Below, one piece after another: positions 3,657-24,536 of a DNA stretch of 40,106 bases. The position numbers and the translations under genes are program-made. The DNA lies in IMG/VR virus record IMGVR_UViG_3300037258_000108, positions 1 to 40,106 of that record. One strand, 5' to 3'. The notes beneath the pieces were generated by a model. That model ran no database searches and was not told the origin of the DNA. It saw only the letters and a program-made list of their open reading frames with translations. This DNA is from a virus. Numbering within the stretch: position 1 is the first letter of the stretch; every line of letters starts with the position of its first letter.

Positions 3657-3662
3657 TTTATA
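3657..3662 (-). promoter_or_regulatory. Candidate leftward late promoter -10 (TATAAA)
   Basis: On the minus strand TATAAA reads 3662 to 3657, with a weak -35 (ATACCA, 3 of 6) 17 nt upstream. It would start a transcript near 3650 through terS, the tRNAs, terL and, across the circle, portal and the other late genes. The weak -35 would fit a promoter that needs activation. It overlaps the outer 21-bp operator at 3661-3681. Confidence 0.4.
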
Positions 3663-3703
3663 TGCTAAAGTGTTTGACATGGTATGCTAAATCACTTATC
3701 ATA
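3661..3703. promoter_or_regulatory. Two tandem copies of the 21-bp operator
   Basis: Copy 1 (3661-3681) is TATGCTAA, 5 nt, TTGACATG: perfect left half, degenerate right half overlapping the -35. Copy 2 (3683-3703) is TATGCTAA, 5 nt, TTATCATA: 15 of 16 half-site bases match the consensus TATGCTAA-N5-TTAGCATA. The copies are 22 bp apart, two helical turns, so bound proteins would lie on one DNA face. They cover the -35 to -10 of the rightward promoter. Confidence 0.7.
3674..3702 (+). promoter_or_regulatory. Strong sigma70-type rightward promoter
   Basis: TTGACA (3674-3679), a 17-nt spacer and TATCAT (3697-3702): consensus -35 and 5 of 6 at -10. It faces the run of small genes from 3734 to 5623, including csrA. 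The spacer and -10 are covered by the second operator, so it should be repressible. Confidence 0.8.
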
Positions 3704-3733
3704 CTTTCATCGAGTTAATAAATGGAGTTCAAA

Positions 3734-3946
3734 ATGAAAGAATTAACACTGTATGACATCATGGGTAGCGATCACTATGTAGTGGCTGATGTTGAAAAGG
3801 ATGGTCAGATAAGAACGATGGTCATTGATGAGAATGATGACGTGGTTTACAACGAAAGTAGCCATAAATTTGCGTGGGAATCGTTGGTATCGTTCGCTAG
3901 AATGGTTATCAGTCAGGACGAGCAAATACAGAAGGAGTTATTTTAA
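3734..3946 (+). CDS. Hypothetical protein (70 aa), first gene of the csrA unit
   Basis: ATG 3734 is preferred to the in-frame ATG at 3722 because TGGAG lies 7 nt upstream of it. The product starts MKELTLYDIMGSDHYVV and is acidic (VIDENDDVVYNE), probably a small alpha/beta fold. It is the first gene after the strong operator-controlled promoter, so it should be expressed early and highly, as is typical of host-takeover peptides. No family is recognised. Confidence 0.7.
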   Translation: MKELTLYDIMGSDHYVVADVEKDGQIRTMVIDENDDVVYNESSHKFAWESLVSFARMVISQDEQIQKELF

Positions 3947-4257
3947 TGACTTGCGATTGTTGTTACTGCAAAACAAAAAATACCTCAGATAATCCTGAGT
4001 ATATCAGGGGTATTAAATTTGCATCTCAATGGGTTGAAGACGAATGGGATAGATTGAAAGAAGGCGTCGACCGTTGGAGAAAGCAGCAAAAGGAAGGCAA
4101 AATAACAGATAGGATTTACAGAAGCCGAGTAGAGCATTTAGAGAATCAAATGAGATTTTTAGGTGAATGGCATGACGTTTTAGCAAAAGAAGGCAATAAA
4201 TCACTAAATCTCATAAAGGACATCGACCATAAAGAATATTTATATGGAGAATACTGA
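3946..4257 (+). CDS. Hypothetical cysteine-rich small protein (103 aa)
   Basis: Overlaps the previous stop by one base (TAATG). The N-terminus MTCDCCYCKTK has four cysteines in nine residues, a possible metal site. The rest is charged and helical (WVEDEWDRLKEGVDRWRKQQK), probably a coiled coil. No known domain. After it, 4258-4314 holds only two very short frames before the next clear ribosome-binding site. Confidence 0.7.
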   Translation: MTCDCCYCKTKNTSDNPEYIRGIKFASQWVEDEWDRLKEGVDRWRKQQKEGKITDRIYRSRVEHLENQMRFLGEWHDVLAKEGNKSLNLIKDIDHKEYLYGEY

Positions 4258-4314
4258 TGGCAGTAATGGAGAAGTTAAAGAATCATGAATAATTTAACGA
4301 AGGAGGAAAAATAG

Positions 4315-4626
4315 ATGGAAGAATGTGTCAGATGCAAAGAAGTCGATGAAGATAGACGAACCCTTTGGATGAGTTGCTTCTATGCGATGGATGAATTAAA
4401 TGTGCCATTCGAGAAAGAAATAATTAACGACCCACGAATGCAAGCGTTCACCCTCCGAGTCTGTAAAGATTGCAGGTCTAGTTGGATGAAAGCCATTCAA
4501 GACTGGTTTAACGGGGTACAACCCATACCTCCTTCTTGTGGCTCAGGTATTTTCATCCGAGAATATGGTTCAGTGAAAGAAGTTACCAGGGAAGAATTTG
4601 ACAAATTACGGTGCTCAAATGAGTAA
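4315..4626 (+). CDS. Hypothetical zinc-binding-type protein (103 aa)
   Basis: AAGGAGG lies 9 nt upstream. Two CxxC pairs (CVRC near residue 4 and CKDC near residue 51) flank a helical segment (MSCFYAMDELNVPF), which suggests one zinc ribbon assembled from both ends. It resembles small phage proteins of unknown role that I have seen annotated only as hypothetical. It overlaps the next gene by 8 nt. Confidence 0.72.
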   Translation: MEECVRCKEVDEDRRTLWMSCFYAMDELNVPFEKEIINDPRMQAFTLRVCKDCRSSWMKAIQDWFNGVQPIPPSCGSGIFIREYGSVKEVTREEFDKLRCSNE

Positions 4627-4879
4627 CGAAGAAGTGAAAGCTGCGGCTATACGTCAATCGATGGACACAATAGACATGTATCGTGGGTTAATGGATGCCC
4701 TAGAGAAAGATTTAAACAATGCTGAAGATGAAGCCATTCAACAAGCAGCAGCATTAGCGATAAGAACATTCCATTTATTCATCACTCAACAAGAGGGGTA
4801 TAATTCATGGAATCAGGCTCTTCGTAATCTCGTTACAAAAGAGCTAATGAGTTGTCATAACATAACGGAAGTTCACTAA
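4619..4879 (+). CDS. Hypothetical helical protein (86 aa)
   Basis: The ATG at 4619 overlaps the upstream stop and is preferred to the TTG at 4598. The product (MSNEEVKAAAIRQSMDTIDMYRG...) is almost entirely helical and alanine/glutamine rich, with no membrane segment and no motif. It is probably translationally coupled to the zinc protein before it. Confidence 0.68.
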   Translation: MSNEEVKAAAIRQSMDTIDMYRGLMDALEKDLNNAEDEAIQQAAALAIRTFHLFITQQEGYNSWNQALRNLVTKELMSCHNITEVH

Positions 4880-4889
4880 GGGGAAATCT

Positions 4890-5156
4890 ATGATCACGAT
4901 GTATAAATATCAATTCGAGTTTGCTAAAGAAGTTACCATCGAAATGCCAGACGGTCCAACAATGCTAAGTGTTCAGTTACAAAATGGCGTTCCTTCTATG
5001 TGGGCAATGGTCAATACAGACAATGCGCCAAAGTCATATAAACTTGCATGCTATTGGACTGGTGAAGAAATTACGAATGCCGATCAACTACGGTTCATAG
5101 GTACTGTCCAGGCAGCTGACAATCTAGTATGGCATATCTTTGAACAATACATTTAG
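4890..5156 (+). CDS. Conserved phage protein, DUF7352-like (88 aa)
   Basis: AGGGG lies 7 nt before the ATG. The pattern MYKYQFEF...IEMPDGPTMLSVQLQNGVPSMWAMVNTD...RFIGTVQ...VWHIFE matches, from memory, a widespread small phage family annotated DUF7352. The family is common in tailed phages of Gram-negative bacteria; its function is unknown. The family number needs a profile search; the likeness of the conserved MPxGxxxLSVQxQNG core is clear. Confidence 0.75.
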   Translation: MITMYKYQFEFAKEVTIEMPDGPTMLSVQLQNGVPSMWAMVNTDNAPKSYKLACYWTGEEITNADQLRFIGTVQAADNLVWHIFEQYI

Positions 5157-5162
5157 GGGCTA

Positions 5163-5273
5163 ATGATGGAACGTAAAGAATTTATAAAGGAATTGATAAG
5201 AAGCGCTTGTGGCATGGCGTGTATAGCAGGAATCCTATACATGATGTTTGCTATAGATTACATGCTACACTAA
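5163..5273 (+). CDS. Very small single-span membrane protein (36 aa)
   Basis: Starts ATGATG after an AGGGG site. The product is MMERKEFIKELIRSACG followed by a hydrophobic span (MACIAGILYMMFAIDYML). A basic N-terminus and one helix predict insertion in the inner membrane. It fits the 5157-5304 gap exactly between the DUF7352-like gene and csrA. Function unknown; a small regulator or toxin-like peptide is possible but not supported. Confidence 0.6.
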   Translation: MMERKEFIKELIRSACGMACIAGILYMMFAIDYMLH

Positions 5274-5304
5274 TTTAACGACACTTTAAAAAAGGAATTC
5301 AATC

Positions 5305-5499
5305 ATGCTGATTCTGTCACGCAGACCAGGCGAGTCCATTATTATCAACAACAACATCAAGATTACATTTCTTGGTAATCAGCGCTTTAATCAAGGTCGA
5401 CTAGGGATTGAAGCGCCCTCTGACATCTCCATCCACAGAGAAGAAATCCAAGAGAAAATAAATAGAGCAAAAGAGGAAGGCATCCATGAACACGACTGA
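5305..5499 (+). CDS. csrA: CsrA-family translational regulator
   Basis: A 64-aa protein of full CsrA/RsmA length. It begins MLILSRRPGESI, keeps the central RLGIEAP and the SIHREEI segment with Arg45, equivalent to the RNA-contacting Arg44 of E. coli CsrA, and L4 and R6 in the first strand. CsrA dimers bind GGA motifs in mRNA leaders and usually block ribosome access. A one-residue insertion (NQRFNQGR) lies in the beta3-beta4 region. AAGGA lies upstream of the ATG. Its unit is driven by the strong operator-controlled promoter, so it is probably made early and acts on host or phage mRNAs. Family assignment is secure; the targets are unknown. Confidence 0.93.
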   Translation: MLILSRRPGESIIINNNIKITFLGNQRFNQGRLGIEAPSDISIHREEIQEKINRAKEEGIHEHD

Positions 5500-5623
5500 A
5501 GAAAAGCAGAAAGTATTCATGTATGCGAAATGCTGCTGTCAAACGCCGTTTATCGTAAAGCTCGCAGCATTCATATACGTCATGGAGTTCTTTTCAAAAT
5601 CACTCCATCACCTCTTTTCATGA
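5486..5623 (+). CDS. Small cysteine-rich hydrophobic protein overlapping csrA (45 aa)
   Basis: ATG 5486 lies inside csrA (14-nt overlap, other frame) with AGGAAGG 6 nt upstream, inside the csrA coding sequence. The product is MNTTEEKQKVFMYAK, then CCCQ, then a hydrophobic run (PFIVKLAAFIYVMEFF). It is probably translationally coupled to csrA. The hydrophobic run is short for a membrane span. Function unknown. Confidence 0.55.
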   Translation: MNTTEEKQKVFMYAKCCCQTPFIVKLAAFIYVMEFFSKSLHHLFS

Positions 5624-5629
5624 GCGCCT

Positions 5630-5772
5630 GTTTGTATCTATTCGACTCCACGATCGATACAAACTTGTGTAGTAAGTTGCGTCCCCAGTAATTTGGCTGG
5701 GGATGCCGTATTCTTGATTCGCGATTCGCGAACAGCGAACAAGTACAAATCAAGTATAAAACAAGTATAAAT
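5630..5772. other. Structured intergenic block: two hairpins, a palindrome and three 11-bp repeats
   Basis: Between the ends of two convergent units lie, in order: an inverted repeat GTTTGTATC/GATACAAAC (5630-5664); a strong hairpin of about 10 bp with core TCCCCAG/CTGGGGA (5679-5706); a perfect 15-bp palindrome TTCGCGATTCGCGAA (5718-5732); and three tandem 11-bp repeats CAAGTAYAAAW (5740-5772). No T-run follows either hairpin, so simple intrinsic termination is not obvious. Confidence 0.75.
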
Positions 5773-5777
5773 TATAC

Positions 5778-6056
5778 CTATTCACCAGGATAGATAGACG
5801 GATTCTCATACTGGTTAATAAGGTCAGCGCAGTACGCATATCCTGCCACATCCACCATTGAGTCCCGCTTGTAGTTATTCATGTTTCTAACCACTTTCAG
5901 CAATATCATGAGATGCGCTACATCACTTGGCTTTATATCAACGCCTAAGTAAGCACCCCATAGCTGACCAATCTTCGTAAAGCAAGCATGTTTATCGCCA
6001 TACTCTTGTTGCCTTGGTCCATCCACTGTTTTCTGCGCATCTTCCAAAATATTCAT
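5778..6056 (-). CDS. DUF6378-like phage protein (92 aa)
   Basis: The pattern RQQEYGDKHACFTKIGQLWGAYLGV, followed by IKPSDVAHLMILLKVVRN and RDSMVDVAGYAYCADLI, is that of a common small phage family that I recall as DUF6378 (function unknown, all-helical). It resembles MazG-like helical nucleotide hydrolases in its E...D...D layout, but I cannot claim activity. It is the last gene of the leftward early unit and overlaps the gene upstream by ATGA. Confidence 0.8.
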   Translation of the reverse strand: MNILEDAQKTVDGPRQQEYGDKHACFTKIGQLWGAYLGVDIKPSDVAHLMILLKVVRNMNNYKRDSMVDVAGYAYCADLINQYENPSIYPGE

Positions 6057-6262
6057 TTATTCCCAACCATATCTTCACAACCACCTTCTTTCCACAGTTT
6101 AACGTGCAAATCAAGCGATTCTAGGGGCACATCTCCGTTCATCATATCTACCTTATCCTCTGGAGACAAAAGTCGCGTAGAAATCAAATTTGGGCTTACC
6201 CCGTATTTGATACCCAATTTAAACAAAATCGACTTACATTCTTTCTCAGTCAACTTACTCAT
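6053..6262 (-). CDS. Hypothetical protein after the replication initiator (69 aa)
   Basis: The product begins MSKLTEKECKSILFKLGIKYG and has no recognised motif. It overlaps the initiator gene by 8 nt and the next gene by ATGA, so it is translationally coupled on both sides. In lambda the gene after O encodes the helicase loader P. This protein is far too short to be P-like, so a replication role is positional guesswork. Confidence 0.7.
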   Translation of the reverse strand: MSKLTEKECKSILFKLGIKYGVSPNLISTRLLSPEDKVDMMNGDVPLESLDLHVKLWKEGGCEDMVGNK

Positions 6263-7148
6263 CAGTCATTCTCACCGCTGGATTATAATTCGGCTTGAGC
6301 GAAGATAGTAAGCCAGCTAGATGTGATTTAGCAACCTCACGATTCGCAGCCTCCTTAGTCACATCCCTAAATGCCTGCGCTTCTTCCTCATATCGCTTCC
6401 TTTTCTCTCTCTGCTGCGCTTCCTCCTCTTCTCGGATGGACTGCACTGTTACCCCCTTGTAGCCATTTGGAATGCGCCAAGCCCCCTCAGAATGCTTTTT
6501 AATGGCTATATTGATGGCTTTCAATGGCTCGTATTTGGTGGTGGTCATCACAAAGAACAAAATCTGTTGAACAATGTCGTTGGGAAGTTCCTCCAATCCT
6601 TTTGACGAAGCTCTGTCTCGAATCACCACACAAATCTCTTCAGGGGTTTTTTCAGTTAACAAAAAAGAAGAAATAATAACAGGGTCCTTATAATTATTTT
6701 TAGGTTCCTCTTTTAGGTTCCTATTATTAGGTTCAGTGTCCCAATTTTGGGACTGCTTAGGTGTCCCAATTTTGGGACTGCTACCAGTCCCGTTTTTGGG
6801 ACTGCTTATTTTCGAAGCAGTACCGTTTTTGGGACTGCTCTGTGGATAACTTTTACTGGGTTTTTTTGGATCAACCTGAATATAGTTTAATCGCATGATA
6901 GGGACAGATTTTGTACGACCCATAAAGTCGCCAGTATAAGAAAGGATATTTTTGTCAATTAGGGATTGCCGGATTTTGAGTATGGTTTTCCGGTCCATGA
7001 GGGTGTCTGTCATTAAGCGTTTTATGCTAGGCCAGCACTCGCCTTTTTCGCCGCATCTGTCGGCTATTGATAAAAGCAGTAGTTTTTCGGTTGTCGTCAC
7101 TTCTTTTTTGGTAAGAGTCCATACCCACTTTGTTGCGTCTACACTCAT
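6255..7148 (-). CDS. Replication initiator, lambda O/HTH_36-like
   Basis: A 297-aa protein. The N-terminal ~100 residues (KWVWTLTKKEVTTTEKLLLLSIADRCGEKGECWPSIKRLM...) form a winged-helix domain of the type found in phage and plasmid initiators. Residues about 105-138 are a low-complexity run (SSPKNGT, SSPKIGT, SQNWDT) encoded by DNA iterons. A helical C-terminal half with an EEEEAQQREKRKRYEEE coiled coil follows. In lambda O the same plan holds: N-terminal iteron binding, an origin inside the gene, and a C-terminal half for partner contacts. ATG 7148 with AAGGA upstream is preferred to the TTG at 7151. A 21-bp operator lies 96 bp upstream. Confidence 0.85.
   Translation of the reverse strand: MSVDATKWVWTLTKKEVTTTEKLLLLSIADRCGEKGECWPSIKRLMTDTLMDRKTILKIRQSLIDKNILSYTGDFMGRTKSVPIMRLNYIQVDPKKPSKSYPQSSPKNGTASKISSPKNGTGSSPKIGTPKQSQNWDTEPNNRNLKEEPKNNYKDPVIISSFLLTEKTPEEICVVIRDRASSKGLEELPNDIVQQILFFVMTTTKYEPLKAINIAIKKHSEGAWRIPNGYKGVTVQSIREEEEAQQREKRKRYEEEAQAFRDVTKEAANREVAKSHLAGLLSSLKPNYNPAVRMTDE
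6641..6849. other. Putative replication origin inside the initiator gene
   Basis: Four palindromic iterons of the form GTCCC-N6-GGGAC occupy 6738-6753, 6763-6778, 6787-6802 and 6820-6835 (one base differs in the last), each followed by TGCT. A perfect DnaA box (TGTGGATAA, i.e. TTATCCACA on the minus strand) follows at 6841-6849. On the other side, 6641-6735 is AT-rich and holds three TAGGTTC repeats (6701, 6714, 6728), spaced 13-14 bp, like unwinding-element repeats. Iterons plus an AT-rich flank inside the initiator gene is the lambda ori plan. Confidence 0.8.
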
Positions 7149-7226
7149 CAATAAACATCCTTATAGTTATTTGAAGCGAGAATGAGCCTGCCGAATACAA
7201 TGACATAAAAAAATGCTTTTGAAAAT

Positions 7227-7264
7227 TTGACATGTTAGATATGTATGCTAAACTTCTAAGCATA
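7227..7264 (+). promoter_or_regulatory. Operator and candidate rightward antisense promoter upstream of the initiator
   Basis: The operator 7244-7264 is TATGCTAA, 5 nt, TAAGCATA (15 of 16 half-site bases match). On the plus strand TTGACA (7227-7232) lies 16 nt before TAAACT (7249-7254), the same spacer and -10 as the leftward early promoter at 10513-10486. This promoter would read away from the initiator, antisense to the gene at 7380-7577, much as the OOP promoter lies between cII and O in lambda. No convincing leftward promoter is visible here. Confidence 0.55.
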
Positions 7265-7290
7265 TTTCGCCTACTCTCTTTAGGTTGAAA

Positions 7291-7344
7291 TAGCCAACGG
7301 GCAACGCCCATGGCCTAATAGATGCTGATTACATCATTTAGGCC
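7291..7344. other. Two overlapping, mutually exclusive hairpins
   Basis: Hairpin 1 (7291-7317) stacks TAGCCA, GGGC, loop AAC, GCCC and TGGCCTA. Hairpin 2 (7312-7344) pairs GGCCTAATAGATG with CATCATTTAGGCC around a 7-nt loop with one internal mismatch. They share 7312-7317, so only one can form at a time. No U-tract follows in either direction. They lie between the 65-aa gene and the initiator, in a 231-nt stretch without a credible gene. Confidence 0.6.
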
Positions 7345-7379
7345 AATCACTTTAGCTTATAAATCAAGGAATTACCATA

Positions 7380-7577
7380 TTACAAATGTTCTATTTTGTC
7401 ATAAAGATGATAATTTCCTGACTGGAATTGCTTTTTAGATAACTTTCTTTCGCAATTTTCGCAGTAGTAAGCGTGGATGAACCCAAAAAACGTCTTCAGC
7501 TCTCTCCAATGATGACATAAATTATATTCTTTGCCATTAGGCTTATCTGCTACGCATTCGTAAATGAGATCCTTCAT
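7380..7577 (-). CDS. Small zinc-finger-like protein (65 aa)
   Basis: ATG 7577 (MKDLIYECVADKPNGK) with AAGGA upstream is preferred to the upstream codon at 7625. C8, then CHHW, then CENC gives a possible C/H zinc site. No family recognised. It is the last gene before the initiator control region in the leftward early unit. Confidence 0.65.
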   Translation of the reverse strand: MKDLIYECVADKPNGKEYNLCHHWRELKTFFGFIHAYYCENCERKLSKKQFQSGNYHLYDKIEHL

Positions 7578-7627
7578 CACAATCCTTATTGTTAATGTCT
7601 TTATAAACCATGTTGAAGTTGACATCC

Positions 7628-8059
7628 TTAGACATCAACTTCATCTTTTGAGTGTACGGGACAGCAGTTCGACCTCTTGAGATACTCCTTGTATGAGAAT
7701 CCACTTAAGAACTTTTTAGCTTCTTCAGCGGGTTCAAAAGCAAGTAACGCGCTAAGTTTCTCAAACTGGTACTCTATCTTTTTGTTAAGCTCATTTTCGA
7801 AGTGAACTTCTTCAGGAGTCTTTAGAGGCTTGATGTAGCCTATTTCATCGATACCGACCATGTGTCCTTGCATTGCACAAATGAACGCCTGATAGCATCG
7901 TAAACCAAGCTCAGCGTCAGCGAATTTCAGCTCGCCTATTCCGCCTACTTGAACCGCACATTTATCGCGTGATAGTTGAAAGTGATGAATCTCATTGGTA
8001 TCAAATGCCGCCTTCCATACAATCCCTGCCCCATCCTTTAATTCAAATTCAATCCACAT
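7628..8059 (-). CDS. Hypothetical protein (143 aa)
   Basis: ATG 8059 (MWIEFELKDGAGIVWK) has GGAG 10 nt upstream and overlaps the previous gene by 11 nt; it is a better start than 8149. The N-terminal half looks like a small beta sheet domain (FDTNEIHHFQLSRDKCAVQVGG) followed by ADAELGLRCYQAFICAMQ. The second half is helical and ends in CCPVHSKDEVDV. The CYQAF segment and its setting resemble part of the 101-aa protein at 12235-12540, so the two may share a domain. Function unknown. Confidence 0.7.
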   Translation of the reverse strand: MWIEFELKDGAGIVWKAAFDTNEIHHFQLSRDKCAVQVGGIGELKFADAELGLRCYQAFICAMQGHMVGIDEIGYIKPLKTPEEVHFENELNKKIEYQFEKLSALLAFEPAEEAKKFLSGFSYKEYLKRSNCCPVHSKDEVDV

Positions 8060-8228
8060 CTTTAATATTCTCCATAACGTTAACTTTTGTTTGCAGAAAA
8101 GCGCATAAAATACCTGCTCTAAATCCTCTCCGATAGTCTTTGTTCTCATCGGTATTTATTTCTTCGTTGAATAACTTCCAGGCTATATCTACATCGTCAT
8201 TTAAATAATCTAATATATGTTTTTTCAT
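8049..8228 (-). CDS. Hypothetical protein after rtcB (59 aa)
   Basis: Three ATGs stand in a row at the rtcB stop. The third (8228) has AAGGG at proper spacing and is chosen. The product, MKKHILDYLNDDVDIAWKLFNEE..., is acidic and helical, with a GFRAGILCAFLQTKV segment. It is coupled to rtcB by overlap, so the two may be made together. No known domain. Confidence 0.65.
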   Translation of the reverse strand: MKKHILDYLNDDVDIAWKLFNEEINTDENKDYRRGFRAGILCAFLQTKVNVMENIKDVD

Positions 8229-8230
8229 CA

Positions 8231-9442
8231 TCATCCCTTAATGCAAAGTATTTGTTTCAATGTATGAACAATCTCAACCAAGTCGCTTTGAGCCGCCATT
8301 ACCGCATCGATATTCTTATATGCCGAAGGGGTTTCATCAAGCGTTGATTCCCCACTGTTACATTCAACGCCAGCTAATGCTCTAGCATGGTCATCTAAGT
8401 TTACTATCGCTTTCGCTCTTGTACGTGACATGACACGACCTGCTCCATGACTACAGCTATTAAAGCTCTCAGGATTGCCCAAGCCACGCACGATAAATGA
8501 TTTTGCACCCATAGAGCCTGGGATAATACCTAACTGGTCTTTACGAGCTGATACAGCGCCTTTGCGTGTGATCCAAACGTTCTCACCGAAGTGATGTTCT
8601 TTCTGAACGTAGTTGTGATGGCAGTTTACTGAAAACGTGTCACACACTATGTCACGTGATAAGACTTGTGACACAACTCGAATTAGTGTACGCATCATCG
8701 CGCATCGATTCTCTTCAGCAAAATCTTGCGCCCACTGGACAGCATCACAATAGTCTTGGAAGAATTGGCTGCCTTCAGGAAGATATGCGAGGTCTTTGTC
8801 AGGCAGATGAATGAAGTATTTCTCCATGTCTTTCTTAGCCAGTTCAATGAAGTGTGAGCCTATAGCATTCCCAACACCACGCGAGCCACTATGAAGCATA
8901 AACCAAACGTCATTGTTTTCATCAAGACATATCTCAATAAAATGGTTTCCACCCCCAAGGGTTCCAAGATGGTTAACGTTGTTAGTATTCTTGAATCGTG
9001 GGTACTTTGCAGTTATTTCTTCAAAGTCTTTATTTAAGTGACTATTCCAGCGATTTAAAATGTCTTCTGGTATCAATCCCGCTTTCCATTGGCCAATCTT
9101 TGTAGCAGGATTGCTTCCGACAGGGATAGCCGCTTCAATTGAAAAACGCAAAGATGTTAATGAATCAGGCAAGTCACTGGCTTTCAAGTTAGTCTTGTAG
9201 GCCATCATGCCACAACCCAAATCAACACCAACAGCAGCCGGAATAATTGCTTTCTTTGTCGCTATTACACTTCCAATAGTGGAACCCTTACCCGCATGAA
9301 CATCGGGCATGACGGCAACGTGTTTGTAGATGAATGGCATTGTAGCCAGTTTCTCTACTTGCTTTTGCGCTTCTTCTTCAAACAGTACGCCATCAACCCA
9401 TGCTTTAATTAGGCTCGCACCATCCGTATTTATTATCTTCAT
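8231..9442 (-). CDS. rtcB: RNA-splicing ligase RtcB (3'-phosphate/5'-OH RNA ligase)
   Basis: A 403-aa protein, the length of bacterial RtcB. It joins RNA 2',3'-cyclic phosphate or 3'-phosphate ends to 5'-OH ends with GTP and Mn2+. All signature blocks are visible: MPDVHAGKGSTIG (45-57), GVDLGCGM with metal-ligand Cys77, NHLGTLGGGNHFIE (157-170), HSGSRGVG (184-191), NCHHNY (273-278), and NSCSHGAGR with the guanylylated His332. It should be active. It sits in the early leftward unit, and the phage also carries four tRNAs, which suggests repair of tRNAs cut by host anticodon nucleases. No archease or rtcA gene is adjacent. Confidence 0.96.
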   Translation of the reverse strand: MKIINTDGASLIKAWVDGVLFEEEAQKQVEKLATMPFIYKHVAVMPDVHAGKGSTIGSVIATKKAIIPAAVGVDLGCGMMAYKTNLKASDLPDSLTSLRFSIEAAIPVGSNPATKIGQWKAGLIPEDILNRWNSHLNKDFEEITAKYPRFKNTNNVNHLGTLGGGNHFIEICLDENNDVWFMLHSGSRGVGNAIGSHFIELAKKDMEKYFIHLPDKDLAYLPEGSQFFQDYCDAVQWAQDFAEENRCAMMRTLIRVVSQVLSRDIVCDTFSVNCHHNYVQKEHHFGENVWITRKGAVSARKDQLGIIPGSMGAKSFIVRGLGNPESFNSCSHGAGRVMSRTRAKAIVNLDDHARALAGVECNSGESTLDETPSAYKNIDAVMAAQSDLVEIVHTLKQILCIKG

Positions 9443-9611
9443 TTTCGTTCATCCCACATTTTCTGCAGTGTGTCATTATGAACGAGCCTTTGACCCATTC
9501 ATGATGTTCTCTGCCGATTAACTCAAAAGTAGTTGGATCCATTCCGCATTTCTCACAGAGGCGTTTCCACTTAAACCACTCAACCCATTTCTTAATTAAA
9601 GGTGTAATCAT
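9405..9611 (-). CDS. Zinc-ribbon-like small protein (68 aa)
   Basis: ATG 9611 overlaps the stop of the 26-aa lipoprotein candidate as ATGA and is preferred to ATG 9656, which has no clear ribosome-binding site. CEKCG and CRKCG pairs about 30 residues apart make a likely zinc ribbon; the N-terminus (MITPLIKKWVEWFKWKRL) is amphipathic and basic. It overlaps the rtcB start by 38 nt. Function unknown. Confidence 0.65.
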   Translation of the reverse strand: MITPLIKKWVEWFKWKRLCEKCGMDPTTFELIGREHHEWVKGSFIMTHCRKCGMNENEDNKYGWCEPN

Positions 9612-9688
9612 ATATGCGGTCCACAGTAAGTCTGTGTACATGCGGCCAATAAGCATATGGCAATCGCCACCAAAAGAATCCTATTCAT
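9608..9688 (-). CDS. Candidate 26-aa lipoprotein
   Basis: ATG 9688 with AAGGA about 7 nt upstream encodes MNRILLVAIAICLLAACTQT and a few more residues (YCGPHI). The basic start, hydrophobic core and LLAAC lipobox are a textbook lipoprotein signal; the mature peptide would be only about 10 residues from the lipidated Cys17. Its start overlaps the upstream gene and its stop overlaps the next start as ATGA. Small phage lipoproteins include Rz1-type spanins and receptor-blocking proteins such as T5 Llp. It is early and far from the lysozyme, so exclusion is a mild preference. Confidence 0.55.
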   Translation of the reverse strand: MNRILLVAIAICLLAACTQTYCGPHI

Positions 9689-9878
9689 CAGCGTTCCTTA
9701 TTAACAATTTAGCTTTAAAAACATCTCGAATTTCTTCTGAAACTTTCTGTATAAAATCATCATCCACTGTGCTCCCCTTGCGCCACCGCAAAGAGTCAGC
9801 AATGATGTCTTTAATTGAGAAGCCATTCACGACTATCTCGCAGGTTTTAGGTCCTTCTGGTCCTTTTTCATCAGTCAT
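9681..9878 (-). CDS. Hypothetical protein (65 aa)
   Basis: ATG 9878 overlaps the upstream stop in an ATGA. The product (MTDEKGPEGPKTCEIVVNGFSIKDIIADSLRWRKG...) looks like a small alpha/beta protein; it is acidic, with no motif I can name. It belongs to the chain of overlapping small genes after the Cro-like gene. Confidence 0.7.
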   Translation of the reverse strand: MTDEKGPEGPKTCEIVVNGFSIKDIIADSLRWRKGSTVDDDFIQKVSEEIRDVFKAKLLIRNADE

Positions 9879-10084
9879 TTGTTACCCTCCTTTTTATGCC
9901 ATAGAAATTCGGTTGCTTTATGTATGAAATCACCGTTCATGAAGTCATACAATAAATCTATACCATGTGCGCCGTTCTCCTCTAGACCAGGACCACCGAT
10001 TTGCATCTGTTTCTTAAGTCTCGCAATGAATAAGGTTAGCTCTGTAGCCTTCTTCACATATTGATATTTGTCCTGGTTGTTCAT
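9875..10084 (-). CDS. Hypothetical protein (69 aa)
   Basis: ATG 10084 overlaps the upstream stop (ATGA). The sequence MNNQDKYQYVKKATELTLFIARLKKQ... has a pattern seen in small phage proteins with two helices and a conserved GIDLLYDFMNGDF-like middle. No assigned function. It is part of the early leftward unit. Confidence 0.7.
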   Translation of the reverse strand: MNNQDKYQYVKKATELTLFIARLKKQMQIGGPGLEENGAHGIDLLYDFMNGDFIHKATEFLWHKKEGNK

Positions 10085-10278
10085 TTACCTATTTCCTCCC
10101 GTAAACATATAAGGCATTCGGCCATAACGCGAAATGCCCTGACACTCATTGCTGGGTCATGATTAGCGATATCAAGCAATTGCTCCAGCCGACTAAAGGC
10201 GCGATTTAAAGCCTTCCCTTCATGCTGTTGCTTAAACCGCCTCAGCTCCTCCAGTTCCCTCATTTCGCTCTCTGTCAT
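10081..10278 (-). CDS. Hypothetical helical protein (65 aa)
   Basis: ATG 10278 (MTESEMRELEELRRFKQQ) follows AGAGGA by 5 nt and overlaps the end of the Cro-like gene by 47 nt; the TTG at 10293 is a worse start. The product is a charged helical protein, probably a coiled coil, of unknown role. Confidence 0.65.
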   Translation of the reverse strand: MTESEMRELEELRRFKQQHEGKALNRAFSRLEQLLDIANHDPAMSVRAFRVMAECLICLREEIGK

Positions 10279-10468
10279 CGAATCCTCTGTCAATATGATT
10301 TAAATCCGCTTTCAATAACCCTTTCGATAACCGCTCTAATTTAATCTGGGTTTTGATGGGAATGAACCCCTGTTTTTCCCAGTTTAAATAGTTGGAGTGG
10401 TGCATTTTTGTTTTCTTATTGAATTGGTAACAGTTACCAAAATACTGCCTAACTTCGTCTATAGTCAT
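10232..10468 (-). CDS. Cro-like helix-turn-helix regulator (78 aa)
   Basis: The layout DEVRQYFGN...KKTKMHHSNYLNWEKQGFIPIKTQIKLERLSKGLLKADL matches the Cro/YdaS type, in which a short HTH is followed by a W-x-(0-3)-G-x-IP turn and an ALRLEKLT-like helix ending in LK. It is therefore a DNA-binding protein, probably dimeric. It is the first gene of the leftward early unit, directly beside the divergent promoters and the operator at 10501-10521, so it is the best candidate to bind the 21-bp operator. GGGGG precedes the ATG. No partner CI-size repressor is visible. Confidence 0.8.
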   Translation of the reverse strand: MTIDEVRQYFGNCYQFNKKTKMHHSNYLNWEKQGFIPIKTQIKLERLSKGLLKADLNHIDRGFDDRERNEGTGGAEAV

Positions 10469-10485
10469 TGTTTGCCCCCGAATGT

Positions 10486-10525
10486 AGTTTACTCTATTGA
10501 CAGGCTAAGTCAATTAGCATATCAT
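10486..10525. promoter_or_regulatory. Divergent early promoters sharing one 21-bp operator
   Basis: Rightward: TTGACA (10497-10502), 17 nt, TATCAT (10520-10525), facing the recombination genes. Leftward on the minus strand: TTGACT (10513-10508), 16 nt, TAAACT (10491-10486), facing the Cro-like gene. The operator 10501-10521 is CAGGCTAA, 5 nt, TTAGCATA: perfect right half, 6 of 8 in the left half. It covers the rightward -35, spacer and part of the -10, and the leftward -35, so one bound dimer could control both. Confidence 0.8.
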
Positions 10526-10574
10526 TCTTTTACGGCATTCTCGCCGCAGTACATAAACTAAAGAGGATAGGAAA

Positions 10575-12219: not shown

Positions 12220-12234
12220 AAAGGAGATAAAAAA

Positions 12235-16282: not shown

Positions 16283-16332
16283 TTCATTGTCTCCATAGAA
16301 TAAATAGCCAACAGGCTACGCTGTATATCATA

Positions 16333-16533
16333 TCAGCTTTCTTTATTTTCCTCATCAGCTTCGTGCGCTAAAAAGGTCTGTACTTCTTCTGTCATCTTGC
16401 CATTGATATAGGCAATAATGGCATCTGACAACTTAGATAACTGACTAACCAACATGGCTTGTATTTCAGGTTCATGCTTAATGATTTCTTTTTCAATGAA
16501 TGCAATTACCGCACTCGCTACGACGTCGATCAT
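16333..16533 (-). CDS. Small helical protein, paralogue of the 60-aa gene at 36066 (66 aa)
   Basis: VVASAVIAFIEKEIIKHEPEIQAMLVSQL, then DAIIAYINGKM, aligns by eye with the protein at 36066-36248 (VSGVVITMLEKELAAQTPEVEAYVLQLL, then DLVAYVEKKV): same length, same EKE, PE and AY(I/V) positions. The N-terminus is hydrophobic, then an amphipathic helix; a peripheral membrane or virion role is possible. Two copies of one small family in one late operon are unusual. Confidence 0.7.
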   Translation of the reverse strand: MIDVVASAVIAFIEKEIIKHEPEIQAMLVSQLSKLSDAIIAYINGKMTEEVQTFLAHEADEENKES

Positions 16534-16542
16534 GATAGCCCC

Positions 16543-17517: not shown

Positions 17518-17526
17518 ATTATCCCC

Positions 17527-18504: not shown

Positions 18505-18513
18505 AATGACCCC

Positions 18514-19485
18514 TTAGTTAGTAGTGACTGTACAGCCTCGACCTTGAAGCGTAGTCTTTGCTGCTAGACCAGTAGCGCTCGGAGCAGAACTTGTGCCACC
18601 ACTCACATTAACCGTGAAGCCGCTATATGCAGTTGTGCCATTTGTACCATCAAGGGCAGCAAGACTCACTAGAATTCCATCTACACTAGCCTGATTCAAC
18701 TTCGCACCTGTAATGGTGAAGTTGCCACCAACAGCTTTTAATGTAGACCCCATTGAGAATGTGACAAGGTTTGCTGCGGTAGCGGCAATCGTCGTTCCTA
18801 CTTTAACAAGTGCTGGGAAGTTTAATGTTGCCAAAGTCGCAGCAGTAAATGCTATGTTCACTCCAACATATTGCAGTCCTGAAAAATCAACACTGGTCAC
18901 AGCAGAAAAGTTAGGGGCTAAAGCACCACCAATGTAACTCAACAATGGCATTGACAACGTTGTTGTTCCAGTTGAAGTCGCACCCCAATTCGCATTAACC
19001 GCTATCAAAGCTGGCAATGAGAATGTCGGTAAAGTATTAAAGACGCAGTTCATGACGCCGCCAATGTAGGCTAGCGATGGCATCGTTAAGGTAGTTAGTG
19101 AGGCTGCTGTTAAGTTAAAGTCACTGCTTATCTGGATTAGACTATTTGCGACAAGGCTAGTTATGAGTAGCGTTCCAGTCAGCATATTATTTAGGACTTG
19201 AATGCCACCTAAATTTAAAGCCGTGACTGCTGGCAACCCATCACCCCCGCCATTTGGGGCAACGTTATTATATTGGCCAAATGTCAATGGCGTAGTATAA
19301 GAGCCACCAGCAATATTTGCTCCTTGCCATACTGAAAACAATGTCCCATACGGAGAGCCAGTAACTGTAATATTTGGATTTGCAGGGATTTCAGATATTC
19401 CCCCAGCAGCACCAGCGGCCAATCCAAGAGCGGTTGTAACGCCGCTCCCAAAAGGTGTCTGGATCTGATTCGTAGTACCAGTCAT
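18514..19485 (-). CDS. Repeat-rich fibre/adhesin protein, paralogue 1 (323 aa)
   Basis: First of the triplet after the long fibre gene. Same N- and C-terminal blocks (MTGTTNQIQTPFGSGVTTAL; GAKLNQASVDGILVSLAAL). Repeats such as LTTLTMPSLAYIGGVM, TFSLPALIAVNANWG, TTLSMPLLSYIGGAL and VDFSGLQYVGVN define about 22-residue coils. Together with paralogues 2 and 3 it forms a tandem array with 9-nt spacers, probably from gene duplication. The three could assemble as homo- or heterotrimers or serve as alternative receptor binders. Confidence 0.8.
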   Translation of the reverse strand: MTGTTNQIQTPFGSGVTTALGLAAGAAGGISEIPANPNITVTGSPYGTLFSVWQGANIAGGSYTTPLTFGQYNNVAPNGGGDGLPAVTALNLGGIQVLNNMLTGTLLITSLVANSLIQISSDFNLTAASLTTLTMPSLAYIGGVMNCVFNTLPTFSLPALIAVNANWGATSTGTTTLSMPLLSYIGGALAPNFSAVTSVDFSGLQYVGVNIAFTAATLATLNFPALVKVGTTIAATAANLVTFSMGSTLKAVGGNFTITGAKLNQASVDGILVSLAALDGTNGTTAYSGFTVNVSGGTSSAPSATGLAAKTTLQGRGCTVTTN

Positions 19486-19495
19486 GGTTATCCCC

Positions 19496-21706
19496 TTATG
19501 CTAATACGAAGCCAGATGATAATGTCCAATCCACAGACCAAGTATTTGAAGCCACATAAACCAATTGAATAGAGTCTGTTCCAGCAGCACTGGTTGCGGT
19601 TCCCGCAGAAGAACTTGAAACAGAACCATCATTGATAACCTGGCTAGTATTGGCTTGGATGATGAATGGAGCAGAACTTGCGCCCTTGACCTTAATCGTG
19701 TCACCAATTGTAGAAGAACCACTGGCTGGCAATGTAACAGTTGTCGCAGCTGCGTTATTCAACAGGTAAGCATTTCCGGCCACTGCTGCTTGTGAAGTTC
19801 CTGAGACAGAGTTGTAAGTGAAACCAACTGAACCAGAAACTAAAGCAATAGTTCCGCTTGTATCTGGAAGTGTCCAAGTACGCTGCGCACTTAAGGAAGC
19901 ATTCTTAATAAAACCATTAAAATTGCCAGCACTATTAGCAGCGCTTAAGATTAATGAACCAAGTCCAGCTGAAGGAGATAATGAACCTATATAGTTTGCA
20001 GCAGTATTTCCAGTGAAGATACCGCCCAACACCCCTGAAATACTGTTGAACACCACATCGCTCGTTGTGCCAATAGGTTGTGGTGTAGTTAAAGTAATCG
20101 CGGTTCCTGTTACTGGACTTCCGCTTGTTCCATTTACTAAAACCTCATTCGCTGTACCTTGAATACTTACAACAGAACTGCCTGCCAACGCAACTGTGCC
20201 AGATGCGTCAGGCATACTCCAGGTTCTTGCCGCAGTCGTTGAAACGTTAGTTAATACGTTTGCAAAGTTACCAGCATTGTCAAGACATTGGATACCGAAT
20301 AAACCTTTTGCGGCTGTCGTAGAGTTAGCTACTAAAGCATTTCCTGCAAGAGCCGTTATATTTCCTGCGCTTGCTACAAGAGCGGTTGCTGTCAATTGAT
20401 AGTTTATTGAAACGCCAGTCCCTGATTTGGTCATCAAGAAATTAGCAGTTGACGCACCAACATCAGGAATTGTTACAACTTGTGATTGACCCAAGCTTGC
20501 AGCATTACTGATGGATGTACCATTGCTATTCGCGCCATCTATTGTTAGTAATTCGAGATAGCCTTTTCCAGATGTTGGAGAGTAGCCAGTGAATTCACCT
20601 GCTGCTCCACCTGTTGGGCTTCCGCTTGAAAAACCACCGTTTGATACACGAAGCGATCCATTTGTAATCGTTTGCAATCCAGCAAGAGATGCAGACAATA
20701 AAAATGTGGCTGTGCTGGCACCAACATCAGGGATGGTTAAAGTTGTGCTTTGTCCATATGATGCGTTAGTTACAATAATGTCATAGCCACTAGCATTGTT
20801 TGCAGCTAAGAATTGGAATGTACCCCGCGCAGCAGTTGGAGAGTACATTGCGAAATTACCAGCTATACCACCCGCAGCAGAACCAGATCCTAGGAATCCA
20901 AGGGGAGCAGTAATATTTCCAGCCGTACTTGTGATTAGGCCAGACGCAGTAACAGTTGCAAGACCCGCCAAGTTATCTGACGCATCTACAGTCATTGCCG
21001 TAGTTTGAACCCAGTTTGTTCCATCAGAACGTAACATATGGTTCAAAGTACCAGAGCCACTTGGGAATGTAGCAGTGGTCCATGTTGGCAATACACCAGC
21101 ACCATTAGATTGCAATAATTGTCCAGAAGTTCCAGCGGTGACTTGCTGTAAGTTGCCAGTCGCAGTTGTACCACCAGCTAATAAGGTATATGTGGTTAAT
21201 GTAGCTAAGCCTGTACCGCCATGACCAACATTTAATGTGCCACCAAGTGAAACAGTATGGCTCGCACCAGCAAATGTTAGTCCAGTAGACGCACCAGAAA
21301 TCGTTAAGATTCCAGATAAAGGTGTCGCACTTCCAGAGTCACCATCAATAGTAGTAATCGCACCACTCGCAGAAACAGCTTGCCATGACGGAGGCGCACC
21401 GCTATTTGCAGTCAATACAAAGCCTGGGGTGCCGCTATTTGCAAGCCAGGAAGGCACGCCAGCGTTGCTTGTGATCAAGACGCCATTGTTGGCGCCAGTC
21501 AACGCCGATATTTTATTGCCACTCGTCGCATAGTAACCAATTTGATTAGCACTACCGCTAGCAACAATCTGCGCATTAAAGTTAGCAAAGGTCATCGCAG
21601 CATCATTACCAGCGCCATATGGCGATTGACCGAAGTACATCAAATCGGTAGACGCATTCGTTGTGATGGGATTCGCTACATATATTTGTTCAATATTTTG
21701 TGACAT
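19496..21706 (-). CDS. Long tail fibre protein with about four internal repeats (736 aa)
   Basis: Threonine-, serine-, glycine- and alanine-rich with little charge, as in trimeric phage fibres. The N-terminus MSQNIEQIYVANPITTNASTD resembles attachment segments of tail fibres. From about residue 255 a roughly 90-residue unit recurs four times, each with a (Y/L)SPT...G.L/F core and closing in a (T/S)(I/L/M)PD.(G/S)(A/G)(S/T) motif: LTIPDVGAST, VTIPDVGAST, WSMPDASGT, WTLPDTSGT. The C-terminal 100 residues (TVTLPASGSSTIGDTIKV...) form a distinct beta domain. Probably the main receptor-binding fibre; it lies directly upstream of the paralogue triplet. Confidence 0.85.
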   Translation of the reverse strand: MSQNIEQIYVANPITTNASTDLMYFGQSPYGAGNDAAMTFANFNAQIVASGSANQIGYYATSGNKISALTGANNGVLITSNAGVPSWLANSGTPGFVLTANSGAPPSWQAVSASGAITTIDGDSGSATPLSGILTISGASTGLTFAGASHTVSLGGTLNVGHGGTGLATLTTYTLLAGGTTATGNLQQVTAGTSGQLLQSNGAGVLPTWTTATFPSGSGTLNHMLRSDGTNWVQTTAMTVDASDNLAGLATVTASGLITSTAGNITAPLGFLGSGSAAGGIAGNFAMYSPTAARGTFQFLAANNASGYDIIVTNASYGQSTTLTIPDVGASTATFLLSASLAGLQTITNGSLRVSNGGFSSGSPTGGAAGEFTGYSPTSGKGYLELLTIDGANSNGTSISNAASLGQSQVVTIPDVGASTANFLMTKSGTGVSINYQLTATALVASAGNITALAGNALVANSTTAAKGLFGIQCLDNAGNFANVLTNVSTTAARTWSMPDASGTVALAGSSVVSIQGTANEVLVNGTSGSPVTGTAITLTTPQPIGTTSDVVFNSISGVLGGIFTGNTAANYIGSLSPSAGLGSLILSAANSAGNFNGFIKNASLSAQRTWTLPDTSGTIALVSGSVGFTYNSVSGTSQAAVAGNAYLLNNAAATTVTLPASGSSTIGDTIKVKGASSAPFIIQANTSQVINDGSVSSSSAGTATSAAGTDSIQLVYVASNTWSVDWTLSSGFVLA

Positions 21707-21898: not shown

Positions 21899-22254
21899 TA
21901 TGGATAACTCACTGGCCACATCACAACGCTAACGTCAGCAGCAGTTTGCGCTGTAATCATGCTAATATTCGTGCCCGCTTGTAAAGTAATGGAAGCAGGA
22001 TTCAATTCACTAGTGGTAGTAGCTAGAGTGTTGCCAACGGGGATAGCCGCAGTAGCTCCACTCACATCAACCCACACATCGTTAGGAAAGTATCTAAAAG
22101 ACACCACCCACGTCTGATGGCTACTTGGAACGGTGATGCTAGTAGCATTCCCGTCAGTCAATGTAGCTGACCATTTAACAGTAGACGGAGCTGGCGCATA
22201 GGCATTATATCCTTGTACGTCACGTCCGAATGTAAGACTTGGTATGTTAGCCAT
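21898..22254 (-). CDS. Putative virion protein (118 aa)
   Basis: Beta-rich, threonine/serine/valine-rich (TVKWSATLTDGNATSITVPSSHQTWVVSF), low in charge, with the look of a small immunoglobulin-like or fibre-knob domain. It lies between the 676-aa fibre and the 60-aa protein and is coupled to the latter. No family recognised; a structural role is inferred from composition and place. Confidence 0.7.
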   Translation of the reverse strand: MANIPSLTFGRDVQGYNAYAPAPSTVKWSATLTDGNATSITVPSSHQTWVVSFRYFPNDVWVDVSGATAAIPVGNTLATTTSELNPASITLQAGTNISMITAQTAADVSVVMWPVSYP

Positions 22255-22263
22255 AATGCCCTC

Positions 22264-24294
22264 TTAGAGTTTCATAAATATGTTATAGAATGCGCTTGGT
22301 TGAGTGACGTTAAACGCAACTCCAGCTGGTGTATTGTTAGAAATCGTAGTTTGTAACGTGTAAGGATTTCGTCCACCAGAGCTACCACCACTACCAACAA
22401 TAACGTTTGTCAAAGACCCGCTCGCCGTGTTAAATCCAACTACTGAAGTAGCAGCAGCATGAGTATGAGACCCGACTTCAGATGATAGCTGCGCATGCGC
22501 GTATTCACCTGTCAACGTGCCATTAACTGCCATTATGACAGTCTGTGTGCCTGAACCAGTGTCAGTAAATGCAACAGTCGTACCCGCCATAGCATTGGCA
22601 TAAGTCGTTGACACATTGAAAGTCGTAGAGCTGAAATTGCCATTAGCTGTAACGAAATAAATCGTGTTGGCTACTAATCCTGTTGGCAATGCGCCACCAG
22701 TATTTAGGAAGGTGACAGGCATTCCCTGGAATACATTAACAGGGTTTGCAGTCGTAACCACAATCCCAGAACCACTACTGGCAGTAAATGTAGTTGAATA
22801 CTTCTTGGTCATAGCAGAGATTGGAACGGTTCCCATCACTACACGACCTGTCATTTCAGTCAACGCAAGTTGTTTTAAAGCATTCCAGTCAGCATAAGAA
22901 GAAGCACCAAATGTAGTTGGAGCACCTGTAGCATCATAGATTTGAACTAACTCAGTGCTATTCACAACAATATTTGAGAAAGCATTCCATAACAGATTGT
23001 AAAGCGCCCAACCATCATTGCCTTGATAAGCAATGGTTAAGTTGGTTGGAGCAACCACTGTTGTCGAACCTGTATTCGGATGAGCCAGTGTTCCACCGCT
23101 CATTGGAACCCATCCGAATGGATAAAAGGTGTTAATGCTAGTCTTGACATCCCCAGTTCGAGCACTCGCAACGACTGAATCGATTTGGTCGTAAGTCGAG
23201 AAGGAATTCGTTGGGACGTCAGAAAGCAATTCACTCAAATAAATAGATGGCAATGTGAAATTCAAATTACATATACCATTGCTTGAGCCAGTTGGTAATG
23301 CGATTTGTAAATAGTAGGCATCATCATTACCACCCGTGCCATCACTACCTAACGTTAAACCTGTAGTACCTGGGAAGGTCAAGCCTTCCAAAGTAAATTT
23401 AGTCCAATCAGCACCGAATGTAATGTTGCCCAAGAACAAGGGAGCTGGAGACGATACACCTGTTCCACAAAACTGATACATGTAGACAGCAATTGTCGCA
23501 TTTCCAGATATTGATTGTCCTTGAATCGTGAAGCTGAATGTTTCACCCACCAACGTTGCTAAATGCAAGGATACGGGGAACTGGTAAACTTTTAATGTAG
23601 AACCAGAAGTATCTGCCGTACAAGTATGATTGATATAAAATTCTGGACCTATGTCGCCTGTAAGGATTGGCGTCGAGGTCTTAGGGAATGTATTAAAGGT
23701 GATAGTTTCCGTGGCTGAGCCATTGACGTTCTTAATGTAATTGAAGTCAGGCATGCTAAAACCATCATGCTGATCGGGACATAACGTCTGATAATACACC
23801 GTACCTGAATTGTTATATTGCACCGTCCAAGTGTTATTCAATGTTCCAGCATTCACACTACCTATGTTTCGCCAGAATCGATTGTTGATTACATAGTTTT
23901 CAAGCGTCGCAATTGTCGCAGGACCAGACCCACCCCCAGTAATGAAGGGAAAGTTTGACCGAGTAAATTGCAAAGTACCTAAATCATCATATGCCGTTAC
24001 AAAGTAAGGCTGGGAAATGTTGGAATCAGTTTCGCTATATGGATAGTAGAACAGAATAATATCATTGCCATTCACATCAGTAGGCGTTCCCGCACCACTT
24101 AATGTCATTGGATTTGGAGCAGCAATATATGTATAGTTACCAGGAGTACCGCTTTGATAATAGACGTTCTTCAGCGTAACCATATCAGGCTGATAGAATG
24201 TAACCACGCCCTGGGTCAGCGGCTCCCCTTCTTTGTCGACGAAAGGAAGTTGCAGAACCGCAGCTGAGATCAGTTTTGATGTGACGATTGCCAT
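22264..24294 (-). CDS. Tail fibre/collar-type tail protein (676 aa)
   Basis: The N-terminus (LQLPFVDKEGEPLTQGVVTFYQPD, then FVTAYDDLGTLQF) resembles phage baseplate or fibre attachment domains that bind the tail hub. The middle is a carbohydrate-binding-like beta sandwich region (NNTWTVQYNNSGTVYY). Residues after about 395 (FYPFGWVPMSGGTL) resemble a tail-collar domain, and GSHTHAA near the C-terminus gives the HxH metal site of T4 gp12-type fibre tips. Likely the fibre or tip that touches the host first. Preceded by a 92-nt gap after the 43-aa gene. Confidence 0.8.
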   Translation of the reverse strand: MAIVTSKLISAAVLQLPFVDKEGEPLTQGVVTFYQPDMVTLKNVYYQSGTPGNYTYIAAPNPMTLSGAGTPTDVNGNDIILFYYPYSETDSNISQPYFVTAYDDLGTLQFTRSNFPFITGGGSGPATIATLENYVINNRFWRNIGSVNAGTLNNTWTVQYNNSGTVYYQTLCPDQHDGFSMPDFNYIKNVNGSATETITFNTFPKTSTPILTGDIGPEFYINHTCTADTSGSTLKVYQFPVSLHLATLVGETFSFTIQGQSISGNATIAVYMYQFCGTGVSSPAPLFLGNITFGADWTKFTLEGLTFPGTTGLTLGSDGTGGNDDAYYLQIALPTGSSNGICNLNFTLPSIYLSELLSDVPTNSFSTYDQIDSVVASARTGDVKTSINTFYPFGWVPMSGGTLAHPNTGSTTVVAPTNLTIAYQGNDGWALYNLLWNAFSNIVVNSTELVQIYDATGAPTTFGASSYADWNALKQLALTEMTGRVVMGTVPISAMTKKYSTTFTASSGSGIVVTTANPVNVFQGMPVTFLNTGGALPTGLVANTIYFVTANGNFSSTTFNVSTTYANAMAGTTVAFTDTGSGTQTVIMAVNGTLTGEYAHAQLSSEVGSHTHAAATSVVGFNTASGSLTNVIVGSGGSSGGRNPYTLQTTISNNTPAGVAFNVTQPSAFYNIFMKL

Positions 24295-24386
24295 CCCATG
24301 CCCTCGAAGTATTTTTAACCTTTATTCTACATGAGGGATGATATAAATAACACTACAGAAATTAAGACAACCGAAAAGTCAAGTAA

Positions 24387-24518
24387 TTATAAATTGTCTA
24401 TCCTGCGCTGATATTCAGCCCACTTGTAGTCAGATTTTAGTCTTGCTTTGGCGACCGATCGTTTATAAATAAAATAACCGACACCAAAGATTAAAATGTC
24501 CCCGATTCCTATAAACAT
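24387..24518 (-). CDS. Small membrane protein under the 21-bp operator (43 aa)
   Basis: ATG 24518 opens MFIGIGDILIFGVGYFIYKR, a single membrane span with a basic inner flank, then SVAKARLKSDYKWAEYQRRI. It lies alone in a 286-nt gap between an ejection gene and a fibre gene. The operator 24516-24536 overlaps the start codon, so its expression may be set by the same regulator as the early genes, unlike the late genes around it. The positive-inside rule puts the basic tail in the cytoplasm. Possible exclusion or lysis-timing peptide; function unknown. Confidence 0.6.
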   Translation of the reverse strand: MFIGIGDILIFGVGYFIYKRSVAKARLKSDYKWAEYQRRIDNL

Positions 24519-24536
24519 GCTAACTCACTTATCATA
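24516..24536. promoter_or_regulatory. 21-bp operator copy inside the late region
   Basis: CATGCTAA, 5 nt, TTATCATA: 14 of 16 half-site bases match the consensus, and 4 of the 5 spacer bases equal those of the 3683-3703 copy (CTCAC against ATCAC). A further half site TTAGCATG lies at 24554-24561. On the minus strand TATGAT (24536-24531) could be a -10 for the 43-aa gene; I see no good -35. Confidence 0.6.

Follow-up and report, generated by a model that had tools for sequence, protein, structure and literature searches.

A recurring palindrome at early promoters of an uncultivated phage is a candidate operator set for its Cro-like protein

Which regulator, if any, is served by a palindrome that recurs at several separate control regions of one phage genome? 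The genome in question, IMG/VR virus record IMGVR_UViG_3300037258_000108, is the 40,106-base stretch analyzed here as the window; because its ends carry a 127-base repeat, it is likely a complete circle of 39,979 bp. Five 21-bp palindromes built on the half-site TATGCTAA lie in it, starting at 3661, 3683, 7244, 10501 and 24516 (Table 1), and comparison with related phages suggests with good probability that they serve as operators for a Cro-type repressor encoded by the phage itself, a 78-aa Cro-like protein that would turn down early promoters in lytic growth.

The original prediction, made from the window alone, was that these five copies occupy four control points and answer to one regulator. 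All five lie at the coordinates it gave and match the half-site bases as counted there, at 13/16 (3661), 15/16 (3683 and 7244) or 14/16 (10501 and 24516). Scanning the window at ≤3 mismatches returned seven matches, against a mean of 0.23 in 100 shuffles (largest 2); equal frequency in shuffled sequence had been named as grounds for abandoning the idea, and shuffled sequence yields the motif far more rarely. The two additional matches, each with three mismatches, fall inside a coding open reading frame (ORF) at 4920 and over a conserved leader hairpin at 7339. A scan with TATGMTAA (gap 4 or 5, ≤2 mismatches) gave four matches where 0.13 were expected. The layout itself needed refining, with 3661 and 3683 forming a single tandem pair and 10501 serving two divergent promoters.

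Sigma-70-like promoters overlap four of the five palindromes, and the TTGACA-type boxes expected at three of the four control points are there, 24516 being the exception. In the early region the right arm of the 3661 operator, TTGACATG, is the −35 box followed by TG, and the right arm of the 3683 operator contains the −10 box TATCAT; this promoter layout recurs in the relatives G001 (as TTGACG), G002, G006 and G018. The 10501 site lies mostly within the spacer of a rightward promoter and also overlaps the −35 box of the leftward promoter of the Cro-like gene itself. Across ten records, 23 of 26 sites overlap a promoter-like pair (≥10/12), compared with 6% of intergenic positions taken at random and 2% of random positions overall. 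The fourth locus had been placed at the start of a membrane protein gene: the 24516 palindrome does cover the start codon of a 43-aa ORF, which had no match in a Pfam search and whose membrane nature amounts to a hydrophobic N-terminus recognized by eye only.

The 78-aa protein models as an all-helical Cro of the N15/P22 type with a helix-turn-helix. Its predicted structure has four helices and no strand, with a mean predicted local distance difference test score of 79 (89-93 in the first five ten-residue blocks, 84 in the sixth and <50 over residues 63-78). Fold comparison placed the Cro proteins of N15 (Z 8.0), P22 (Z 7.1) and prophage Xfaso 1 (Z 6.9) on top, with the next row at 4.9, a Z near 8 alone being compatible with a merely common arrangement. 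Profile searches matched the protein to phrog_409 (E 1.2e-7) and to P22 Cro (1rzs; E 7e-5), and PF14549 was matched at E ≤0.01 by eight of ten aligned members, the window protein included. Against the phage collection it retrieved seven records, all weakly (best E 0.2, ~30% identity).

Relatives were sought by TerL, the Cro-like protein and the genes at 3722 and 10081, and 23 records were fetched besides the window; G006 is contained in G007, L055/L057 appear to duplicate the G020 phage, and L068/L069 appear to duplicate G023. Recurrence of the motif at equal places in relatives, as had been anticipated, was found for the early/late region, the cro promoter and one initiator leader, although some sites are missing. 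Operators occupy the early/late divergent region in G001 (9267), G002 (3550 and 3571), G018 (11404) and G006/G007 (15752 and, the same stretch, 20913), with the tandem geometry of 3661/3683 repeated in G002 3550/3571 and, by eye, in G006/G007. Sites also stand ahead of the 3722 homolog in G018 (12689) and G016 (7705); no operator was found at the early promoter of G004, and its 8.8-kb fragment contains no Cro match. At cro promoters, sites were found in G001 (1413), G002 (10084, 10130), G018 (18619), G016 (1083), G021 (17293) and G022 (3600). G020 carries one before the gene preceding cro (16627) and one just past cro (17230), and further sites overlap promoter-like pairs in G021 (11677, 12629) and G022 (33190). 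G020 has two Cro-like genes in one record (L085/L086; 17037-17219 and 23970-24143).

The remaining two control points recur more sparsely. The distant relative G016 carries an initiator-leader operator at 2512-2531, written in its own half-site and immediately following the conserved hairpins also present beside window 7244; none was found in that leader in G001 or G002. In the late region of G007, a site at 4635 falls immediately beyond the 295-aa ORF that comes after the 26191 homolog, within a TTGACA-N17-TAATAT promoter reading into a 30-aa hydrophobic ORF. Because BLAST found no match between that ORF and the window gene 24581-26194 at the same place, its likeness to 24516 is one of position alone; no late-region site at ≤2 mismatches was seen in G001 or G018. 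Match counts are modest (G002, 2 against 0.2 expected; G018, 3 against 0.47, including an intragenic one at 535; one match each in G007, G015 and G016), so the case in relatives rests on position.

Half-sites change together with the recognition helix of the Cro-like protein. The window pairs TATGCTAA with helix MHHSNYLN; G018 pairs TATGATAA, with C at position 5 in 2/6, with MHHSCYLN; G001 and G002 pair TATGATAT and TATGATAA with MEHANYLN and MSHASYLN; G016 pairs TATGTSAC with FAHTNFSN; G021 and G022 pair TATRTCAA-like half-sites with MSPNTLTN and MSAATLGN; and G020 pairs TATAACAA/TATGTCAA with MSASTFRN. In these eight of the ten aligned Cro-bearing records (G009 and G023 were dropped), helix distance correlated with operator distance (r 0.74, permutation p 0.0008), also once the remainder of the protein was taken into account (partial r 0.73, p 0.0006), in a small sample of related phages with sites chosen by the analyst. 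When 51 eight-residue windows were ranked, those starting at residues 20-23 were the top four whether every site was used (0.64-0.78) or just the cro-proximal ones (0.41-0.50); the half-site thus follows the recognition helix better than other parts of the protein. C at position 5 occurs in 9/16 half-sites with an HHS helix and 0/12 with an xHA helix. Together with the equivalent sites, this co-variation supports the Cro-like protein as the likely binder, and comparison with relatives points to a single regulator shared among the control points.

A matrix built from 11 sites of relatives, with no window sites, ranked 3683, 24516, 7244, 3661 and 10501 as the top five spacing-5 positions of the window, at scores for which 0.005 to 0.125 matches are expected per simulated 40 kb. 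Next came 16312, also fourth by an earlier 7-site matrix (both at spacing 5 only), which could be another operator; that earlier matrix put 3683, 24516 and 3661 on top at spacing 5. Several results weigh against a Cro operator set. Both matrix tests are partly circular, because TATGCTAA or TATGATAA patterns had served to locate several of the sites in relatives. The best eight positions of the 7-site matrix include neither 7244 nor 10501, and its best spacing-4 match, in coding sequence at 32197, scored above 3661. G001, whose Cro is 72% identical, has the operator at its cro and early promoters, where its absence had been named as the other ground for abandoning the idea, but no equivalents of the 7244 and 24516 sites, and its match count (1 against 0.57 expected) is not above chance. 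G009 and G023 encode a Cro-like protein, and no recognizable operator was found in them; single matches of the same kind occur in G015, a 5-kb fragment without a Cro match, and at G016 10222. The window protein matches PF14549 (P22_Cro) at E 7e-4 and 19.7 bits, under the curated cut-off of 30.2, and its best Foldseek E is 0.015 (probability 1.00). Finally, no promoter-like pair of 10/12 or better was found at 24516. Separately, nine stretches with the exact consensus in other viral contigs look like chance matches, since neither a convincing Cro-like gene (best E 0.11) nor a homolog of a window protein at E 1e-5 was found there.

We considered whether the palindromes arise simply from promoter hexamers, with arms such as TTGACAT and TATCATA falling on −35 and −10 boxes. 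Right arms do coincide with such boxes at many sites, yet the left arm TATGCTAA of 3683 sits in the spacer, where a promoter element is not expected, 3683 and 10501 are offset from the −35 box by distances that differ by 5 bp, 24516 has no promoter of 10/12 or better, and the 16 promoter-like pairs (≥10/12) in the window far outnumber the sites; this explanation appears very improbable. True operators bound by another protein, either a host regulator or a phage protein besides the Cro-like one, are a somewhat stronger contender and still improbable. The Cro-like protein as binder is a prediction from sequence comparison, and the window encodes other DNA-binding proteins, namely an initiator with HTH_36 and a terminase small subunit. 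On the other side, the half-sites track the Cro recognition helix more closely than they track other regions of the protein, and G008 (37 kb, completeness not established), which gave no Cro match with a two-row model, also gave no operator match at ≤2 mismatches, with several at 3. An AlpA-like helix-turn-helix protein, the second candidate of the original prediction, was rejected, as a search with PF05930 at a cut-off of E 10 matched nothing in the window; G008 has two matches.

At 7244 alone, the palindrome might instead be a fourth hairpin of a structured leader RNA upstream of the replication initiator, a reading we consider unlikely. The leader is common to the window, G001, G002 and G016, and shows three hairpins by eye and two in the computed consensus; hairpin 2 changes from GGGC/GCCC to GCGC/GCGC. 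Of the 14 predicted pairs, 6 are doubly changed in at least one of the four sequences, with some pairs broken in others. A search of Rfam found no family at gathering score. The palindrome abuts these hairpins, and self-complementary stretches occupy the corresponding position in G016 and G001, the TGTG...CACA of G001 differing from the G001 operator. However, 7244 matches the operator consensus at 15/16, beyond mere symmetry, the G016 version shares an arm, TATGTGTA, with the G016 cro-promoter site, and RNAalifold left the 7244 columns unpaired.

If the palindromes are operators of the Cro-like protein, as we favor, a dimer of this all-helical N15/P22-type Cro would bind 20-21 bp sites with half-site TATGCTAA over promoter elements and, sitting over the −35 box, spacer or −10 region, would block RNA polymerase. 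The protein would turn down its own promoter together with the divergent recombination/replication promoter, the early small-gene promoter, where two dimers could sit 22 bp apart, and the antisense-pointing promoter beside the replication-initiator leader. It would thereby limit its own synthesis, the early operons being turned down during its accumulation; the 24516 copy may bring a small gene of the late region under this control as well. Lysogeny genes were sought in nine records (the window, G001, G002, G006-G009, G016 and G018), of which the window, G001 and G018 are circular, as judged from end repeats. Neither tyrosine integrase (PF00589) nor serine recombinase (PF00239), nor HTH_3 (PF01381) or S24 (PF00717) at E ≤0.001, was found in any of the nine, a search confined to these families. 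A lambdoid CI/Cro lysogeny switch is consequently unlikely, and because neither a CI-type repressor nor an integrase was found, the role we infer for Cro is likely the timing of early transcription in lytic growth.

The N15/P22-type Cro proteins, their operators and Cro/half-site correlations are already known. The Cro proteins of N15, P22 and prophage Xfaso 1 (PDB 6on0/2hin, 1rzs and 3bd1) share the predicted fold and helix-turn-helix of the window protein, and likewise use a palindromic operator overlapping promoters beside cro. P22 is temperate and has a prophage repressor. In lambda, the small promoter of oop RNA opposes the replication-gene transcript, and OR and OL operators lie near the cro and replication genes; the opposed promoter here, unlike that of oop, carries a Cro-type operator, and its antisense RNA is only putative. 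N15 and phiKO2 are described as temperate with a prophage repressor, and the phiKO2 Cro as binding OR3 only (PMC4997575). Unlike those phages, no CI/S24/HTH_3 protein or integrase was found here, and three or four distinct places carry the operator instead of one. Recognition-helix residues of Cro reportedly correlate with half-site bases at lambdoid OR sites (Hall et al., 2005 and 2011, as cited in PMC4997575, PMC4488713 and PMC12670291); the same joint change is seen here, in uncultivated phages with a multi-promoter set and no CI partner found. What sets the present case apart is a Cro-type operator set at several unlinked promoters with no CI partner found; a literature search covering titles and abstract openings, mostly outside subscription journals, found no description of the operator or of a CI-less Cro set.

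Beyond the operator set, the window encodes terminase, portal proteins, the replication initiator, RtcB, a DnaB-N protein and CsrA. Three tRNA genes lie at 2269-2510, and ARAGORN called a tRNA-Tyr at 34290-34375 (+), for which the Rfam tRNA model gave no call at gathering score. The phage-collection search found no close relative: TerL is <60% identical to every one of 1499 matching records, coat proteins from Vibrio and Shewanella phages share 22-25% identity with the 31524-32840 protein, and megablast of bases 1-20000 against named phages gave two short matches, both at tRNA genes. A host search of genome contigs with the G001 Cro and with TerL likewise found no relative. The inverted pair of DnaA-box-like sequences at 3576-3598 matches a pattern present in 11 of 24 records, and the repeats at 6736-6839 resemble the iterons of lambda O. 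In G007 and G018, the late genes homologous to window 28174 to 26191 form a block whose orientation is opposite to that in the window.

Table 1. Coordinates of the candidate operators and associated features (window positions unless a record is named)
Feature	Position	Strand	Remarks
Upstream operator of tandem pair, TATGCTAA-AGTGT-TTGACATG	3661..3681	(+)	3 mismatches; rank 4 (11-site matrix)
Downstream operator of tandem pair	3683..3703	(+)	between −35 and −10; rank 1 at spacing 5
Operator TATGCTAA-ACTTC-TAAGCATA	7244..7264	(+)	beside replication-initiator leader; rank 3 (11-site matrix)
Operator CAGGCTAA-GTCAA-TTAGCATA	10501..10521	(+)	cro/recombination-operon divergent region; rank 5 (11-site matrix)
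Late-region operator CATGCTAA-CTCAC-TTATCATA	24516..24536	(+)	covers 43-aa ORF start codon; rank 2 at spacing 5
Weaker candidate operator CAGGCTACGCTGTATATCATA	16312..16332		between late-region ORFs ending 16282 and 16333; rank 6 (11-site matrix)
Cro-like protein, 78 aa, predicted binder	10232..10468	(-)	recognition helix ~residues 22-29 (MHHSNYLN)
Early promoter-like TTGACA-N17-TATCAT	3674..3702	(+)	rightward small-gene operon from 3722, includes csrA
Promoter-like TTGACA-N16-TAAACT	7227..7254	(+)	directed away from initiator gene, antisense to its leader
Promoter-like TTGACA-N17-TATCAT	10497..10525	(+)	rightward operon 10575-14971
Promoter-like TTGACT-N16-TAAACT (9/12)	10486..10513	(-)	for cro; −35 inside operator 10501-10521
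43-aa ORF	24387..24518	(-)	start codon within operator
Conserved structured leader RNA	7262..7353	(-)	upstream of replication initiator; directly beside 7244 operator
CsrA gene	5305-5499	(+)	early region; E 2e-20; within rightward small-gene operon starting 3722
RtcB RNA ligase gene	8231-9442	(-)	early region; E 1e-125
Inverted pair of DnaA-box-like sequences TTATCCCCA...TGTGAATAA	3576-3598	(+)	just upstream of likely leftward late-operon start
22-base repeat GTGTCCCAATTTTGGGACTGCT, four copies	6736-6839		77-100% alike; inside initiator gene
Inverted late-gene block	L042 86-6165; G018 31170-38242 (L083)		

Each of these phages probably runs its gene program with one repressor and with none of the customary lysogeny genes sought here. 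More tentatively, and with the odds against it, the whole uncultivated group may be run by Cro alone, without CI, such that one operator at early, replication-antisense and late places times the entire cycle or allows a carrier state, while specificity drifts between sister phages through paired helix and operator changes, so that nature would supply a set of mutually orthogonal repressor/operator pairs. Cro is familiar as one partner in a lysis/lysogeny switch, and a group that apparently keeps only Cro shows the protein with nothing to switch. The eight natural helix/half-site pairs offer a direct test of the rules of Cro-DNA recognition, as well as a source of possibly independent small repressors.

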